Below, in pieces: positions 5,781 through 19,644 of a stretch of DNA of 64,000 nucleotides (positions are counted from its first letter, which is position 1; each line of letters begins with the position of its first letter). This DNA comes from Spartobacteria bacterium. GTDB taxonomy: Bacteria > Verrucomicrobiota > Verrucomicrobiia > Chthoniobacterales > UBA10450. The stretch covers positions 310,001 to 374,000 of the forward strand of contig PMSN01000025.1 in the NCBI GenBank assembly GCA_003167555.1, in the 5' to 3' direction. The notes beneath the pieces were generated by a model. That model worked only from the letters and a program-made list of their open reading frames with translations, was not told where the DNA came from and did not search any database. The position numbers were made by a program, and so were the translations under genes.

Positions 5781-5880
5781 TGTCATCCCGAGCGGAGTCG
5801 AGGGACCCCGGTCATCACTCATCTACGCCGCCCGCACAAAACGGGGTCCTTCGACTCCGCTTCGCTTCGCTCAGGATGAC
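5781..5880. repeat. Palindromic repeat, GAGTCGAGGGACCCC subfamily
   Basis: Inverted arms begin TGTCATCCCGAGCGGAGTCG and end with the complement GGATGAC. The second arm carries a short GCTTC duplication. It sits between the convergent ends of recQ and the TPR membrane gene, so it may also act as a bidirectional terminator. Confidence 0.85.
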
Positions 5881-5915
5881 GGTGCGTTGACTCCGCTTCG
5901 TTTCGACAAAGTTTT

Positions 5916-7736
5916 CTATGGCTGGGGAACGTCGGCGTGTTCCATCAGGTGGACATCGTACGCTTTCGCGCGCTCGAGCGCTTCCATCGCTTCGCGGGTG
6001 GGCCCGTTTTTTGAAAAAAGGCGGCTCAGTAATTGCCACGACTCCGCGCGATACCATTGGGTTACCAAACAGGACTCGAGCTCCGCGATCGCGGCCGGCG
6101 TCATTCCATTCTCGTCCAAAGCTTCGATGAAGCGCCGTTCGATTTTCCAATTCGGCGGCCCGGTCCGGGCAGCGAGACGAAAGCGCATCAGGTCGATCTC
6201 GCCGGTTTCTTTGAATTTGAGGACGGCGAGAAGCTCATGCGCCTGAGCGTCGACCAGCGGAAGTTTTGTCGCGCGGTTGAGTAGATCGTGCGCGGTGGCG
6301 AAATCGTTTTGGCGAATCGCGACGACCGCGAGGTTGAGGACGGCGAGAGGTTGGCCCGGCTCCTTGCGGAGTGCGACCTCGAGATGTTTCTTGGCGGCGT
6401 CGAGCTGCCCGTCATGCAGCTCGAGCCCGGCGAGGTTGATCAGCATGCGGACGGAATCGCCGCCGGCGGCGATCGTGCGTTCGAGAAATACGCGCTGATT
6501 TTTCCAATCGAAAGTCTGGAGGCAGGTGCGCGCGCCAAGAAAAACAAGCCACACCGCCAGCGCGCTGGCGACGAGAGTTTTGGAAAGCGCGACGCGCGAG
6601 ATCGCGAGCCCGGCGGCGATGAAGAGGAATGCGGTCGGCAAATATATCCAGTGCTCGGCCACGTTGGCATTCAGCAGCACAACACCGCTGATTGGAAGAT
6701 AGGTAATGGCTGCGAGAAGCAGACAGCAAGAGATCGCCGAATCCTGTTTTCGGCTGCGGACCAGCCAGTAAAGCGCGGCGGCAATGAGCAAGATGCCCAG
6801 GAGTGTTTGCAATTCCCGCCAGGCCGCGCTGTTCGCGCTCGCTTCACTCGGTCCCTCGGGATGCGTCTCCACATCGCGGTCCATGTGAAGATTAATAGGG
6901 AGCAAAATCAGTCCGGTGTATTCGGCAAAGGCGCGTGCAGCGAGGATCGGCCTCACGAGCAACGGTGCCGGCGCATGGAGTGTGGGCGGCGGCACGTGTT
7001 CGGCGGACAGGCGCAGGCTCAGATAAATCACGATCACGAAAAGCGCGGCTGCGGTGGCGGGAAGAAATGCCTTCCAGTTTTTTTTCAGCAACAGGATCGC
7101 GCCCCAGAGCGCCAGAAAAATAAGACCATTCTCCTTACTCAACGCGGCCAGCAGAAAAAGCGCACCGGCCCCTAAGATCAGGAGCCATCGGCCGGCGCCA
7201 TTCGTGCGCAACGCGCGGATCGCGAAATAGAGTCCGAGAAATCCAAATGCCGCCGCGAGCGGATCGGCCCGCCCGGAAATGTAGACAACCGCCGCGGTGT
7301 GGACGGGATGAATCGCCCACGCCAGCGTTGCGACAAACGCGATGCGGCGGCGTTTCCGTTCCTCGACTCCAAACAGGCGCAGCAATTCCTCGCTGAGCAA
7401 AAGGAGCGCAAGCGCTGCGCCGATGTGACAAAGAACTGATGAGAGATGGTAGCCGGCCGGCCCAAACGTGAACGCCGCGTAATCCAGCGTGTAGGTCAGC
7501 CGCTGGATCGGGCGGTAGAAGTCCGACGGCGTCGCGTCGGTAAAGAGAAAATGTTGAAAGCCTTCGGGAATGAGCCGCCAACTGCGGATGAGCGGATCGC
7601 GCAGGGTCAGGGCGGTGTCGTCCCACACGAAATCGTTTTGCAGCGCCGGCGCGTAGAGCGCGAAGACGACGATGGCGAGCAAAAGCGCGGGCAAAATTTT
7701 CTTCACGAACAAAATGCGGTTGGACAGGAGCAACAA
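5916..7736 (-). CDS. Polytopic membrane glycosyltransferase-like protein with C-terminal TPRs (TMTC type)
   Basis: This 606-aa protein begins with a membrane segment followed by a first external loop containing DFVWDDTALTLRDP. That acidic loop is typical of GT-C fold transferases such as the TMTC/PMT group, which transfer sugars from lipid-linked donors. About ten further hydrophobic segments run to residue 400. The last 190 residues are soluble helical pairs of TPR type (for example GQLDAAKKHLEVALRKEPGQ). The acceptor and sugar are unknown. The listed start is a TTG; a GTG ten codons further in (VKKILPALL) is equally plausible. It is divergent from the L,D-transpeptidase-like gene, with about 20 bp between starts. 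Confidence 0.8.
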   Translation of the reverse strand: MLLLSNRILFVKKILPALLLAIVVFALYAPALQNDFVWDDTALTLRDPLIRSWRLIPEGFQHFLFTDATPSDFYRPIQRLTYTLDYAAFTFGPAGYHLSSVLCHIGAALALLLLSEELLRLFGVEERKRRRIAFVATLAWAIHPVHTAAVVYISGRADPLAAAFGFLGLYFAIRALRTNGAGRWLLILGAGALFLLAALSKENGLIFLALWGAILLLKKNWKAFLPATAAALFVIVIYLSLRLSAEHVPPPTLHAPAPLLVRPILAARAFAEYTGLILLPINLHMDRDVETHPEGPSEASANSAAWRELQTLLGILLIAAALYWLVRSRKQDSAISCCLLLAAITYLPISGVVLLNANVAEHWIYLPTAFLFIAAGLAISRVALSKTLVASALAVWLVFLGARTCLQTFDWKNQRVFLERTIAAGGDSVRMLINLAGLELHDGQLDAAKKHLEVALRKEPGQPLAVLNLAVVAIRQNDFATAHDLLNRATKLPLVDAQAHELLAVLKFKETGEIDLMRFRLAARTGPPNWKIERRFIEALDENGMTPAAIAELESCLVTQWYRAESWQLLSRLFSKNGPTREAMEALERAKAYDVHLMEHADVPQP

Positions 7737-16014: not shown

Positions 16015-16022
16015 AAAAAAAT
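16015..16022. repeat. Left 8-bp target-site duplication
   Basis: AAAAAAAT directly abuts the left transposon end and is repeated exactly at 19637-19644. An 8-9 bp duplication is the norm for the IS1 family. The A-tract makes chance similarity more likely than usual, but the terminal T also matches. Confidence 0.85.
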
Positions 16023-16044
16023 GGTAGTGTCCTAATTTGAAATC
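16023..16044. repeat. Left terminal inverted repeat
   Basis: The sequence begins GGTAGTGTCCTAATTTGAAA and matches the complement of 19615-19636 at all 22 positions. The GGTRRTG start resembles IS1 ends. The last codons and stop of the 282-aa cargo gene lie inside it. Confidence 0.93.
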
Positions 16045-16880
16045 TGAGGCGGCTGAGGGCGCATTTCCAGCCGAACGAAAATACGCGTAGCGTCTTGATC
16101 CATATGGGCTGCAATCGCTCCCGTCCGGCTTTGAATTTCCGGCAGAATGCTCAGAACTTTTTTGACATTCCTTTTCCCCAAGCCGTGAACGTTGAGGTAA
16201 TTCACGCCATTCTGAATGTTGCGCTTCATCTTCGTACAAATGTCCGTCGTGATCTTGGCGGCAGATGCGGCAGAAAAAACAAACTCAGTCCATGGAAGAT
16301 CAGTGACGATGTTGTTGTAAAGCGCCTGAAATTTTGCCTTCGCTGTTTCGAGATCGCCAGGGTAAACGCTACATAACGCCTCATGAAGCGGCCAAAACCA
16401 CTCCTCTAAATATCCCGCTGAGCACAAATTAGCGAAATGGCCCCCCCTGGGACCGTAGACATGCACAATCTGTGTTTTTAGGCCCTCGACTGAGCCTCCA
16501 GAATTAAATCTGGCGCGAAGAAAAAGGCAGGCATTTAAAAGAGGTATGTCCTTGGGAAGGAGAATCGGACGAAACTTTCGGGCGGTTTCCTCGATTCCGG
16601 GAAGAGCTTCTAGCGCGGCGTTGACGGTCGGTGCGCTGTTCTCATCCAATATCACCCCGGCTTCATCCAGGGCTTCCGTTCGGAGAATTTGTCTTAGACC
16701 GTGTTGCTGCCTTGGCGTCAAACTGTGCGGATCAATTACGAAAGTCGATCCCTCGACCTTAGTCGTGACCGACTTGTCAATATTGATATTGATTAATGAA
16801 GAGAATTTTATCCCAGTGATTGACGAAAGCTTTGGAAGGTTAATTCCAATTGCTTTCAGCCTCTCCGAAATGCTTCTCAA
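16032..16880 (-). CDS. Transposon cargo protein, 282 aa, unknown
   Basis: I do not recognise this protein. It starts with a possible helix-turn-helix-like segment (residues 1-35, ISERLKAIGINLPKLSSITG), followed by a linker with SLTPRQQHGLRQIL. The rest is mainly helical with aromatic patches (AGYLEEWFWPLHEALCSVYP) and a C-terminal helix with NVHGLGKRNVKKVLSILPEI, which resembles a helix-hairpin-helix (GLGKRNVKKVL). No signal or membrane segment is seen. It lies 21 bp downstream of the 82-aa gene, same strand, and both are probably one transcript. Its stop codon (complement of 16032-16034) is within the left inverted repeat. A two-gene toxin-antitoxin or accessory function is possible but not shown. 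Confidence 0.72.
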   Translation of the reverse strand: MRSISERLKAIGINLPKLSSITGIKFSSLININIDKSVTTKVEGSTFVIDPHSLTPRQQHGLRQILRTEALDEAGVILDENSAPTVNAALEALPGIEETARKFRPILLPKDIPLLNACLFLRARFNSGGSVEGLKTQIVHVYGPRGGHFANLCSAGYLEEWFWPLHEALCSVYPGDLETAKAKFQALYNNIVTDLPWTEFVFSAASAAKITTDICTKMKRNIQNGVNYLNVHGLGKRNVKKVLSILPEIQSRTGAIAAHMDQDATRIFVRLEMRPQPPQISN

Positions 16881-16901
16881 GAGCAGGGGGGGCTAACTAG
16901 A

Positions 16902-17150
16902 TCAATTGCGCGTGCTGGTTTCAATTGCCTGCGCGGCCTCAATTAGAGACACTATGTCTGATTTGACAAAGATCGCCGAACCTTTTCGAATACCTGCAAA
17001 TTCGCTCAGTGGAATATCCTCTCCCCGAGGCGTTAGAACTCGCTGTTTTGGCTGACATCTTTCGACAATGAATCCGTCTCGGATCGTTTTTCCGAAAGCC
17101 TCCAGTACAAAATCTCGTGCGCTGCTATCAAATGTGATTCGGACACTCAT
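16902..17150 (-). CDS. Small cargo protein, 82 aa, upstream partner of the 282-aa gene
   Basis: This is a short soluble protein with a beta-rich centre (IVERCQPKQRVLTPRGEDI) and a C-terminal helix (KSDIVSLIEAAQAIETST). A GGAG-type ribosome binding site precedes the ATG on the minus strand (AGGAGTAAG just upstream of 17150). It is encoded directly upstream of the 282-aa gene in the same direction. The size and order recall antitoxin-toxin pairs, but no known antitoxin motif is visible. Confidence 0.68.
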   Translation of the reverse strand: MSVRITFDSSARDFVLEAFGKTIRDGFIVERCQPKQRVLTPRGEDIPLSEFAGIRKGSAIFVKSDIVSLIEAAQAIETSTRN

Positions 17151-17355
17151 CTTACTCCTCCAAAATTAAATCGTCGCATACTAAACAAATAGACGCCAGC
17201 AACAATGAAATTTGTCAATTTATTTCTTAGTAGCAGTAATTGCGCCGTCCTACTGCGCGATGTAAAAGATACATGCGTAGCAGTTTACATAGGAACACTC
17301 ACCACCCCTGCGACTGATTATCAAATTAGCGATTTCTTCGCCGCCGTCAAGTGCC

Positions 17356-17655
17356 TCAATTCTCATTCCGTCGTGCCGTCGCCGCAATCGCCACTTTGAC
17401 GGCGCTCTGCGGGGAATCCACAGGCGGAATTTCCAAAACCGCGATGGTCTTGATTTCTTTCCCTTCCTCATACTTCCACGCGTAAGCACGCTTGGCTTTA
17501 TCGTGGCCCACTAAATCGAAAACCTCGACCGTTCCCTGCCACGCGATGAGTTTGTTGAAAACTTCTTTTACCGGGACGGATTCGACATATCGCGAATCGC
17601 ATCCGTGCATCGCTTTAATCGCCCGTTGTAGGCTCTTGATCTTCTCAGGCTGCAT
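17356..17655 (-). CDS. Hypothetical protein translationally coupled to the transposase, 99 aa
   Basis: The start codon overlaps the end of the transposase frame (AATGCAGCCTGA: ATG here, TGA there), so translation is probably coupled. The protein is a small alpha/beta domain with VEVFDLVGHDKAKRAYAWKY in the middle and no recognised motif. The tight link to the transposase suggests it belongs to the element rather than to unrelated cargo. Its C-terminus is Arg/Asn rich. Confidence 0.68.
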   Translation of the reverse strand: MQPEKIKSLQRAIKAMHGCDSRYVESVPVKEVFNKLIAWQGTVEVFDLVGHDKAKRAYAWKYEEGKEIKTIAVLEIPPVDSPQSAVKVAIAATARRNEN

Positions 17656-18472
17656 TGACTAGATCGGCAACCGTCCAGTGGCTTGTCTCGATTCCTGCCG
17701 CCATTGCGGGCGTGCAACGAAGCGAGCCGTGCGTTTTCACAAGGTTGTAATACGCGAGATTGAGCGCGATTGCCGCCTTGAAATTCGGCAATTTTTTGGA
17801 GAACGCCAGCGTCAAGCGGGCCAACCGCTTGCAGTGTGTCCGCACCGTAAGATTGGCCCGCTCGATGTATGACGTGCAAATGTGATTGTGGTTTGGAGCG
17901 CCAATCATCGGGATTTTGTGAACGGCGCGAAGTTCGCCGGGGCTGTACCTACGTTGAACCTCTGCGCCGCTCGGGGTTGAATATTCCTTTACGATTTGCG
18001 CGTAGTCGATGACGGGGCCGAATGCTCGCTCAACCGCGTCGGCATAATTGACCATCGCATCGGTGGAAAGCTGAATCCGATTTGTCAGCCGTCCCGCCAA
18101 ATCCTCCATGAACATGTGAGCATGATAACGGTCGCGCGGGCCAACGACAAAAGAGGGAATCAGTTTTGTCTCAGGGTCGATGCCCATGAAGGTCCACACA
18201 TCGCCAAGCCCCTGTCTGCGATCTGTCTCAGTCGCGTTGCGTCTTTTCTTGCCGATGAAGCCCCACAACTCGTCAACCTCGATACGCGAGCAATTTAGTC
18301 CGCGCATTTTTTGATCGAGAATTTGATGGCACGTTTCACCGACGCGGACACCAAGGCGCATGATCGTATCGCGATGAATTTCAGTCATGCGCTCGATTGA
18401 GCGAATGCTGTTTCCCTCTGCGAGTGCGCTAATCACTGCGACCTGTTTTTCGGTGCTGAGGATGTTCGCCAT
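17645..18472 (-). CDS. IS1-family DDE transposase
   Basis: The transposase has 275 aa. Residues about 14-41 form a helix-turn-helix (ALAEGNSIRSIERMTEIHRD). The catalytic triad is visible as D67 (IEVDELWGFIGKKR), D138 (QLSTDAM) and E204 (CTSYIERANL), and the block ERANLTVRTHCKRLARLTLA aligns with the conserved C-terminal part of IS1 transposases. It lacks the N-terminal zinc-finger segment of E. coli InsAB and is a single frame, so no frameshift is needed. It is divergent from the ribbon-helix-helix gene, with shared operator-like repeats between them. Confidence 0.93.
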   Translation of the reverse strand: MANILSTEKQVAVISALAEGNSIRSIERMTEIHRDTIMRLGVRVGETCHQILDQKMRGLNCSRIEVDELWGFIGKKRRNATETDRRQGLGDVWTFMGIDPETKLIPSFVVGPRDRYHAHMFMEDLAGRLTNRIQLSTDAMVNYADAVERAFGPVIDYAQIVKEYSTPSGAEVQRRYSPGELRAVHKIPMIGAPNHNHICTSYIERANLTVRTHCKRLARLTLAFSKKLPNFKAAIALNLAYYNLVKTHGSLRCTPAMAAGIETSHWTVADLVNAA

Positions 18473-18498
18473 AAACTTTTGTTTCCGTTTCTGATTTA

Positions 18499-18552
18499 TT
18501 GTGCCACAGTAAATCAGGCAGTCAATAGATTATTTGTGGCACAGAAAAGAAA
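18499..18552. promoter_or_regulatory. Operator-like TGTGsCACA repeats in the divergent gap
   Basis: TTGTGCCACAGTAAATCA at 18499-18516 and TTTGTGGCACAGAAAAG at 18533-18549 share a TGTGsCACA palindromic core. A third, weaker copy lies at 18718-18741 just after the small gene. The first and third are imperfect inverted copies (14 of 18 positions). The second covers the likely GTG start. They are good candidates for binding sites of the ribbon-helix-helix protein controlling itself and the transposase; this is inference. Confidence 0.45.
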
Positions 18553-18715
18553 ATTACCAAGGGGCCGCCCGAAGTTCCCGAAGGGCGAGGCGAGAGATGA
18601 GCTGCTCCGCGTCCGCGTCTCACGCTCGGAAATGAAAAGTTTCGAGGAAAAGTCGGCACGGGCAAACGAACCGCTGCCAGAGTGGGTGCGAAAACGATTG
18701 ACGGAAGCAGAGTAA
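18536..18715 (+). CDS. Ribbon-helix-helix type small DNA-binding protein
   Basis: The 59-aa protein (GTG start at 18536) has a basic N-terminal arm (KRKLPRGRPKFPKGEARD), a single strand LLRVRVSRSE, then helices EMKSFEEKSARAN and LPEWVRKRLTEA. This strand-helix-helix order with the SxxEWVR-like helix is that of MetJ/Arc repressors and many antitoxins. Upstream open codons back to 18479 are possible but have no ATG. It is divergent from the transposase gene, so a repressor of transposition is plausible. Confidence 0.62.
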   Translation: MAQKRKLPRGRPKFPKGEARDELLRVRVSRSEMKSFEEKSARANEPLPEWVRKRLTEAE

Positions 18716-18717
18716 CG

Positions 18718-18741
18718 TGATTTAGTGTACCACAGAAAAGA
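18718..18741. promoter_or_regulatory. Third TGTACCACAGAAAAGA motif copy
   Basis: TGATTTAGTGTACCACAG followed by AAAAGA ends one base inside the tRNA-like sequence. It shares CCACAGAAAAG or GCACAGAAAAG with the copy at 18533 and is inverted with respect to the copy at 18499. It could be an operator half or the end of a nested small element. Confidence 0.35.
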
Positions 18742-18814
18742 TGGAGGCGACGGGATTCGGACCCGTAATTTCCCAGGTGTATAACCGGGTGGTTTACCGT
18801 TAGCCTACGCCCCC
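18742..18814 (-). tRNA. tRNA-like sequence, anticodon not assignable
   Basis: Read on the minus strand the 73-nt sequence folds as a cloverleaf. The 7-bp acceptor stem is GGGGGCG/CGCCTCC with one G-U pair. The T arm is perfect (ACGGG, loop TCCGAAT, CCCGT). The D arm is weak (GGCT...AACC, one mismatch). The anticodon arm CCCGG...CTGGG forces an 8-nt loop TTATACAC, or a 7-nt loop with a C-U mismatch, so the anticodon could be read as AUA or as UAC with an inserted base. CCA is not encoded. It may be a decayed tRNA or a mobile-element tRNA mimic. Confidence 0.5.
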
Positions 18815-18832
18815 AAATTTTCTGAAATAGTG

Positions 18833-18900
18833 CCCCGGTGCCTGATCGGAGGGTTTGGAATCCTCCCAGTGCAGAGTTGGAATCTGCACACTCGGTCACC
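18833..18900 (+). other. Second tRNA-like double-hairpin sequence (Pro-like anticodon arm)
   Basis: An anticodon-like arm GAGGG-TTTGGAA-TCCTC (18849-18865) would read UGG (proline). It is followed after a 5-nt variable region by a perfect 5-bp T-like arm GCAGA-GTTGGAA-TCTGC (18871-18887). The D-arm region is shortened and the 5' and 3' ends pair poorly (CGGTG with CACCG), so this is not a normal tRNA. It lies 18 bp from the other tRNA-like sequence, in the opposite orientation. Confidence 0.4.
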
Positions 18901-18962
18901 GAGGTCTTGGTTTTGTCCCGGTTGTGCCGCAAGCGCGCCGGGACAAATTTTTTCTAGACGGC

Positions 18963-19379
18963 TCATATTACTTTCTTGAAAACGGCGGGCCGCTGACCCC
19001 GCCCCGGTTCAATTTCCTCAATCTCTCCGTTTTTCTTCAATCTGGTCAAAACTGTCGCGACGGCATTCATCCCGAGTTGATACCCGAACGTCCGCAGGCA
19101 GCGGTGTATATCCCGAATCGTGTAATCGGTCGGCATTTTGGCGATTGCGCTTTTCACGAGGCGGGTGTTCTCGCCGTACGCCCTCTCCGTGGGATTATGC
19201 GGAACGAGAAGTAAATTGGGATGCGCGTTGTCGTCGGGTGCCGTTCCGTTTGTCCCCTGCTGCCTCGACATATCCTCCCGCACAATACGGTAAGCCTCGA
19301 TTAGCGCCTGCCTCTCGCGAATCTCATTGGCTAGGCGATCTTCAATTTTCCGAATGTCCTCAACGGTCTGCGGTGACAT
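18963..19379 (-). CDS. Cargo protein with coiled coil and winged-helix-like C-terminus, 138 aa
   Basis: The N-terminal 40 residues are a charged coiled-coil helix (VEDIRKIEDRLANEIRERQA). A linker leads to a C-terminal winged-helix-like domain: IRDIHRCLRTFGYQLG, NAVATVLTRLKKNGEIEEI, then a basic wing GRGQRPAVFKK. It is probably a DNA-binding protein. Its stop lies about 60 bp from the second tRNA-like sequence and it is transcribed from near the right end of the transposon. It could be a regulator or an accessory transposition factor. Confidence 0.68.
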   Translation of the reverse strand: MSPQTVEDIRKIEDRLANEIRERQALIEAYRIVREDMSRQQGTNGTAPDDNAHPNLLLVPHNPTERAYGENTRLVKSAIAKMPTDYTIRDIHRCLRTFGYQLGMNAVATVLTRLKKNGEIEEIEPGRGQRPAVFKKVI

Positions 19380-19472
19380 GATTTAGAGAGTAAACGAAGA
19401 TGCCATGCAAAAGCAAGGACAAAGTTATGGGCCGGAGTTTTCGCAATCTTGCAGGTTATTCGCAGATTTGCA

Positions 19473-19496
19473 GGCGCATTTAATGCGCCCGTTTTT
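19473..19496 (+). terminator. Possible rho-independent terminator in transposon end
   Basis: A 7-bp stem GGCGCAT/ATGCGCC with a 3-base loop is followed by CGTTTTT on the plus strand. It could shield the right end of the element from transcription. No plus-strand gene immediately upstream is seen. Confidence 0.45.
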
Positions 19497-19500
19497 GTCC

Positions 19501-19530
19501 GACAATGCCCGACAATGCCCGACAATGCCG
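19501..19530. repeat. Three tandem 10-bp units GACAATGCCC
   Basis: Units at 19501, 19511 and 19521 are identical except the last base of the third. They lie about 100 bp inside the right end of the transposon, a position where iterated transposase or host-factor sites are often found. Confidence 0.7.
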
Positions 19531-19614
19531 ACATTTATAAGGCGAGGGTGGATGCGGCAAATTTACCAGCGTGGAAATTGCCAAAGCGTGATTCGAGTTA
19601 ATTCAGGTTATTTC

Positions 19615-19636
19615 GATTTCAAATTAGGACACTACC
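19615..19636. repeat. Right terminal inverted repeat
   Basis: This is the exact complement of 16023-16044, ending GACACTACC. It is followed by AAAAAAAT at 19637-19644. Confidence 0.93.
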
Positions 19637-19644
19637 AAAAAAAT
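19637..19644. repeat. Right 8-bp target-site duplication
   Basis: AAAAAAAT is identical to 16015-16022 and lies directly outside the right inverted repeat. Confidence 0.85.

Follow-up and report, generated by a model that had tools for sequence, protein, structure and literature searches.

A probable cargo-carrying transposon of an IS1-related family in a Spartobacteria genome, and the tRNA-like gene of the family core

Analysis of a 64,000-nt stretch of contig PMSN01000025.1 of a Spartobacteria bacterium (the window; all coordinates are positions in it) indicates that the segment 16015-19644 is a complete cargo-carrying transposon of an IS1-related family, a reading to which we give a probability of about 0.88. 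It belongs to a genuine cargo-bearing IS1-like group of the 'transporter insertion sequence (IS)' type. The recurring core of the family, as distinct from its cargo, comprises a tRNA-like gene, a divergent gene for a ribbon-helix-helix (RHH) regulator, the transposase gene and an overlapping gene for a protein of about 100 aa, orf99. More tentatively, at odds somewhat below even, the core would hold an alanine-charged suppressor tRNA, mostly reading UAA or UAG and controlling translation in the element or its host. The boundaries and the transposase gene of the element in the window are as follows:

16015-16022, no strand: left target-site duplication AAAAAAAT, identical to 19637-19644
16023-16044, plus strand: left terminal inverted repeat GGTAGTGTCCTAATTTGAAATC, 22 bp
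17645-18472, minus strand: IS1-like DDE transposase, 275 aa, single reading frame, recognised by Pfam and NCBIfam profiles, alignment and tree
19615-19636, minus strand: right terminal inverted repeat, exact complement of GGTAGTGTCCTAATTTGAAATC
19637-19644, no strand: right target-site duplication AAAAAAAT, identical to 16015-16022

The inverted repeat was found at 16022-16044 and 19615-19637 as 23 nt with 100% complementarity; when its outer T/A pair is counted with the duplication, the ends are 22 bp long and the 8-bp duplication is exact. The distance from outer end to outer end is 3,614 bp, with 2.8 kb of DNA other than the transposase gene. The original prediction, made from sequence alone, had named perfect 22-bp inverted ends, an exact 8-bp target duplication, a length of 3,614 bp, an IS1-type transposase with the triad D67, D138 and E204, and at least five further frames (here orf78, orf99, orf82, orf282 and orf138), all of which were confirmed. 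With up to three mismatches allowed, the 22-mer occurs at only two sites in the 4.2-Mb genome, both of them the ends of the element, in opposite orientation, while the reversed control pattern has no match there; similar ends were found in 28 of 83 family genomes, again with no match for the reversed control. Accordingly, the ends are not due to chance.

In the search for an empty site, the two flanks of the element were joined and compared with related genomes. The genome G021 (locus L165) contains the orthologous neighbourhood without the element, and the joined flanks align with it across the junction (78% over 678 columns); further genomes match the left flank up to or near the junction.

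Searching with a transposase alignment, we obtained 80 loci in bacterial genomes and a further 27 in viral contigs. The script used for delimiting elements, which required only an identical outer 8-mer and inner inverted ends, delimited an element at 53 loci, two of them poor fits that were left out; the statistics of complete elements refer to 50 of the window's type, the window included. Around 50 further complete elements have similar ends and exact 8-bp duplications of differing sequence, in hosts from Verrucomicrobiota, Acidobacteriota, Myxococcota, Pseudomonadota and other phyla. Complete elements are 1,911-6,161 bp long (median 3.2 kb), with 1.1-5.3 kb of DNA outside the transposase gene (median 2.4 kb), and none of the 50, including the shortest at 1,911 bp, has ends flanking the transposase alone. 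Since such an element was not seen, cargo is the rule in the group. The proposal of a cargo-bearing IS1 subgroup is thus supported, with the same ends and duplications enclosing the transposase and variable cargo, and the refuting case named with it, homologues whose ends flank only the transposase, was not seen among complete elements.

The variable cargo is represented by GmrSD, AIPR, an IrrE-type peptidase, helix-turn-helix (HTH) proteins, SocA/Panacea antitoxin, zeta toxin, PIN and NYN, as well as a pair of type II restriction enzyme and methylase, and AbiU. The elements L232 and L233, which lie in one and the same genome, are 94% alike across the region of the transposase and differ in the middle.

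The transposase is, by sequence, a distant, divergent single-frame relative of IS1. The residues D67, D138 and E204 are invariant among its close relatives, and PF03400 (DDE_Tnp_IS1) matches with 34.9 bits at a cut-off of 24.1, which places the protein among IS1 homologues. No IS1595-type transposase domain was matched in Pfam or NCBIfam up to E 1. A tree built from 101 transposases sets the clade of the window (83 rows) apart, with full support, from a second clade, called sister only descriptively, as the tree was midpoint-rooted. The window's clade includes hosts from Verrucomicrobiota, Acidobacteriota, Myxococcota, Fibrobacterota, Planctomycetota, Pseudomonadota and others; the sister clade includes plasmids of Mesorhizobium, Hoeflea and Acidiphilium, and its delimited members, which also carry cargo, mostly have ends like GGTAGTGGNTCAGTTTGAA.

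According to the proposed mechanism, the DDE transposase would act on the 22-bp ends, move everything between them as a unit and produce the 8-bp duplication. Three observations count against this interpretation of the window as a transposon of an IS1-related family: the element is present as one copy only in the genome, with transposition inferred; NCBIfam NF033558, the IS1 equivalog, reaches 57.6 bits against a cut-off of 100; and orf82, orf138 and orf282 have no known function. Because the NF033558 cut-off is missed, the element is filed in an IS1-related group and not under canonical IS1. The single copy would also fit coincidental ends and duplication around ordinary chromosomal DNA, an explanation that is almost certainly wrong: it is contradicted by the empty orthologous site, by some 50 homologous elements with exact duplications, and by orf282, which turned up nowhere else when 213 genomes of the order were searched.

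Several unusual members of the family were recorded. The genome G039 contains four full sister-type copies (L232, L233, L234 and L235) with related transposases and largely different cargo, which suggests cargo exchange between elements. In two genomes, at L046 (7967-8004) and L049 (3532-3564), only the two inverted ends are present, fused into 38 and 33 bp and flanked by exact 8-bp duplications; these are apparently extreme internal deletions or remnants of family elements. Short derivatives that have the same ends but lack a full transposase, 237-657 bp in length, were found at L040 (19552-19788), L039 (5407-5903), L051 (880-1488) and L055 (4589-5245); L040, L051 and L055 have exact duplications, L039 has none, and some of the four keep part of orf99. 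The element L139 (1016-7176) contains two related transposase genes and two orf99 genes and is probably one element nested in or fused with another. A 6.65-kb sister-type element with an 8-bp duplication is present in the large genome of Brevundimonas phage vB_BpoS-Gurke (L256, 486-7139), in whose record the stretch of the element, including the transposase, is without gene annotation. In the Acidiphilium multivorum plasmid L254, a pair of RES-domain and MbcA-ParS-Xre genes of toxin-antitoxin type (5880-6718) immediately adjoins a sister-type element at its end and, by the boundaries delimited, falls just outside the element or straddles them.

The remaining core genes and associated structures of the window element are the following:

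17356-17655, minus strand: orf99, an accessory gene conserved in the family; its start and the stop of the transposase gene overlap (ATGCAGCCTGA)
18493-18550, no strand: two palindromic repeats, TGTGCCACA and TGTGGCACA, a probable operator between the divergent transposase and regulator genes
18536-18715, plus strand: small RHH (NikA-like) protein, probable repressor, with a presumed start; listed open reading frame 18479-18715
18719-18741, no strand: third operator-like repeat copy, adjoining the 3' end of the tRNA-like gene
18742-18815, minus strand: tRNA-like gene with G3:U70 and A73; its loop, TTATACA, has AUA in place of the stop anticodons of relatives
about 18833-18904, minus strand: second structured stretch, with an 8-bp acceptor-like stem and two hairpins

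The gene orf99 was found in 45 of the 50 complete elements. Its product gives a confident predicted model (predicted local distance difference test score, pLDDT, 93) for which no convincing solved relative was found (Foldseek best E 0.23; VIA-align best Z 5.5, a designed protein), and it may play an accessory role. The RHH gene, divergent from the transposase gene, is present in 30 of the 50; the window's protein matches the NikA-like profile at E 0.003, below the cut-off, and would repress the promoter that the two genes share by way of the palindromes lying between them.

Two tRNA-like sequences had been predicted in the window, and one of them holds as such: the gene at 18742-18815 is a canonical cloverleaf, with a tRNA-type match by ARAGORN and a match to Rfam RF00005 of 47.8 bits (18742-18814, minus strand). 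The second stretch was recognised as tRNA by neither ARAGORN nor Rfam, though it is structured, folding better than all of 200 shuffles (z -3.2); it lies just 5' of the first, in a position comparable to that of the tandem tRNA of L097. Since the loop of the window's tRNA-like gene is TTATACA (AUA) and full pairing of its stem requires an 8-base loop, this copy may have decayed and may no longer read a stop codon.

Across the family, ARAGORN calls 'tRNA-Stop (tta)' in several different elements, and of 54 elements put through a structural scan, 27 gave a tRNA-like gene, compared with 2 of 216 shuffled elements; the sister type yielded no such gene. From the scans, 42 tRNA-like genes were curated by hand, upstream of the transposase or elsewhere in or beside elements, and L112, whose stem favours UAC, was added afterwards as a further case. 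Stop anticodons are present in 38 of the 42 (UUA in 30, CUA in 7, UCA in 1), the other four having AUA (two, one of them the window copy) or other triplets (two), although these genes share ancestry and the counts are therefore not independent. The pair G3:U70 was found in 31 of the 42 genes, with A73 in all 31. G3:U70 and A73 are established alanine identity elements of tRNA, and their presence predicts that the RNA would be charged with alanine. For many members of the clade, the likeliest role of this predicted alanine-charged RNA with a stop anticodon would be weak nonsense suppression, which is itself held tentatively, a little short of an even chance. Genome-wide counts with covariance model R1 were not used as evidence because it also matches host lysine and aspartate tRNAs.

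A second property of these genes is the conservation of their structure and position. The acceptor and T stems covary, with compensatory changes, at a score reached by none of 500 shuffles, and the gene usually lies just upstream of the regulator and transposase genes over several phyla. Both facts, together with the 38 stop anticodons, speak against functionless captured or decaying tRNA genes that merely hitch-hike on the elements; that explanation is rather improbable, and what it has in its favour are the atypical copies (the window copy with AUA, L126 and L132) and the several relatives lacking a tRNA-like gene.

The reading frame of the anticodon was assessed by stem pairing. The stop-anticodon frame pairs best in 30 of 43 stems and the frame shifted by one in 5 of 43. 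The shifted frame would give valine (UAC), with canonical U33 and A37, and hence an ordinary sense tRNA; in the alphaproteobacterial branch its stem is as good or better (5/5 in L112, 4/5 in L120). Overall, it attains 85 of 215 pairs, near the 66 of another wrong frame, against 137 (64%) for the stop frame, and most bodies bear the alanine signature; the valine tRNA is considered quite improbable.

Suppression by the stop-anticodon tRNA meets several difficulties. Mismatches are frequent in the anticodon stem, position 37 holds C and not a purine in 38 of the 42 genes, many relatives have a shortened D arm (a compact D hairpin) missed by Rfam, no tRNA is detectable in several relatives, and interrupted long frames show no excess of TAA (19 TAA, 23 TAG and 49 TGA, against a background of 3784, 3012 and 5984). 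Many of the relatives' tRNA-like genes fail both ARAGORN and Rfam. Part of this pattern would fit a non-decoding mimic, perhaps alanylated, acting as a structured regulator or processing signal, with the conserved loop YUACA as a contact or base-pairing site: besides the weak anticodon stem, the short D arms and the Rfam misses, the acceptor and T arms with G3:U70 and A73 are the best conserved parts, C37-A38 is conserved beyond the anticodon, and no readthrough target was found. Such a mimic is considered somewhat less likely than suppression. The stop triplet is kept on different bodies, alanine-type, leucine-like and another type with a long variable arm (L097 and L109), and even where position 37 changes (CTTTAAA, CTTTAGA); CUA and UCA variants occur; and the perfect stems of L097b, L102, L106 and L109 place the triplet exactly at positions 34-36. 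The leucine-like body with a long variable arm in L097 and L109 still has UUA, and the stem of L109 is perfect.

Two further observations concern these genes. At L097 (2135-2315), from Myxococcota, two different stop-anticodon tRNA-like genes, one leucine-like and one of a second type with a long variable arm, lie in tandem upstream of the transposase gene. The antisense strand of tRNA-like genes often translates to peptides of the 'GxEP...' type, and small annotated 'GxEP...' proteins near such transposases are probably spurious.

Candidate targets of suppression were sought within the elements, and neither stop-codon comparisons nor counts of interrupted frames revealed a gene that needs suppression for its expression. 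In-frame stops in the transposase or the cargo were rejected as targets, transposases being open in nearly all copies; such stops are one TAG in L061, one TGA in L079 and two TAA in L127, and most other transposases with stops are frameshifted. Neither the stop codon of the transposase gene nor the first in-frame stop upstream of it follows the tRNA type, and the stop codon of the RHH gene varies, being TAA in the window and TGA in L056 and L058. In an element with a UUA tRNA-like gene, L061 (5793-6614, locus G193:C99), an otherwise intact transposase has an in-frame TAG at a lysine position, which could be decay or real readthrough.

Three passenger genes lie in the window element outside the core:

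16032-16880, minus strand: orf282, with its stop codon inside the terminal repeat
16902-17150, minus strand: orf82, from the list of open reading frames
18963-19379, minus strand: orf138, which has homologues in further family elements

Homologues of orf138 were found in similar elements of G005, G055 and G193, with further matches in G019 and G020. The passengers would be exchangeable, being orf82, orf282 and orf138 here and genes of toxin-antitoxin, restriction and abortive-infection type in relatives. The element is flanked by a gene which, from its sequence, we take to encode ribosomal protein L9, and by a gene with TPR-like repeats.

The results define a widespread IS1-related transposon group that routinely carries extra genes, including those of toxin-antitoxin and phage-defence type, mostly in uncultured soil and groundwater bacteria, and its clear ends ease annotation. 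If true, the core tRNA with a stop anticodon would be the first found case in which a simple transposon family has a nonsense suppressor of its own, and such genes may account for some of the tRNAs that genome annotations list as 'tRNA-Stop' or undetermined. In the literature searched, which mostly did not cover subscription papers and did not include ISfinder, no report was found of IS1 elements with passenger genes and tRNAs, nor of suppressor tRNAs on transposons. Transporter ISs and suppressor tRNAs are each known, and their combination appears to be without report in that literature.

Transporter ISs (tIS), that is, ISs with passenger genes, are a described concept, as in the IS1595 family (PMC3129680; PMC7986276). 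Similar to tIS, the IS ends and transposase of the present group enclose genes unrelated to transposition, and movement as a unit is inferred from duplications and the empty site; the group differs from tIS of IS1595 in the lack of an IS1595 transposase match in Pfam and NCBIfam, and from tIS in general in that cargo is apparently the rule in the whole group and a tRNA-like gene is part of the core. A category for possible suppressor tRNAs already exists in annotation (PMC9897764). With nonsense-suppressor tRNAs, including those of recoded phages, the present genes share a tRNA body with a stop anticodon on a mobile element, but the elements yielded no recoded genes, the anticodon stem is poor, position 37 is C, and the body is mostly of alanine type. 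Transfer-messenger RNA (tmRNA) carries an alanine-charged tRNA-like domain, which has in common with these genes the signature G3:U70 and A73 and acceptor and T arms as the best conserved parts; the alanine-type copies differ from tmRNA in being cloverleaves of about 66-78 nt with a conserved loop of UUA/CUA type and without an mRNA-like part.

With the IS1 family, the element shares a DDE transposase of detectable homology, inverted ends of 20-odd bp starting with GGT and an 8-bp duplication, in agreement with the ends of about 20-25 bp and duplications of 8-9 bp expected of that family, and plasmid-borne relatives of the transposase carry the annotation 'IS1 family transposase'. The classical trait of IS1, two overlapping frames (insA and insB) joined by ribosomal frameshift, is absent, the transposase being encoded by one open frame of 275 aa; the IS1 family includes single-frame members. 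The spacing between D138 and E204 is also longer, with 65 residues between them against about 24 in canonical IS1. Finally, the element differs from IS1 in its length of 3.6 kb, with passenger genes, the accessory orf99, an RHH regulator and a tRNA-like gene.

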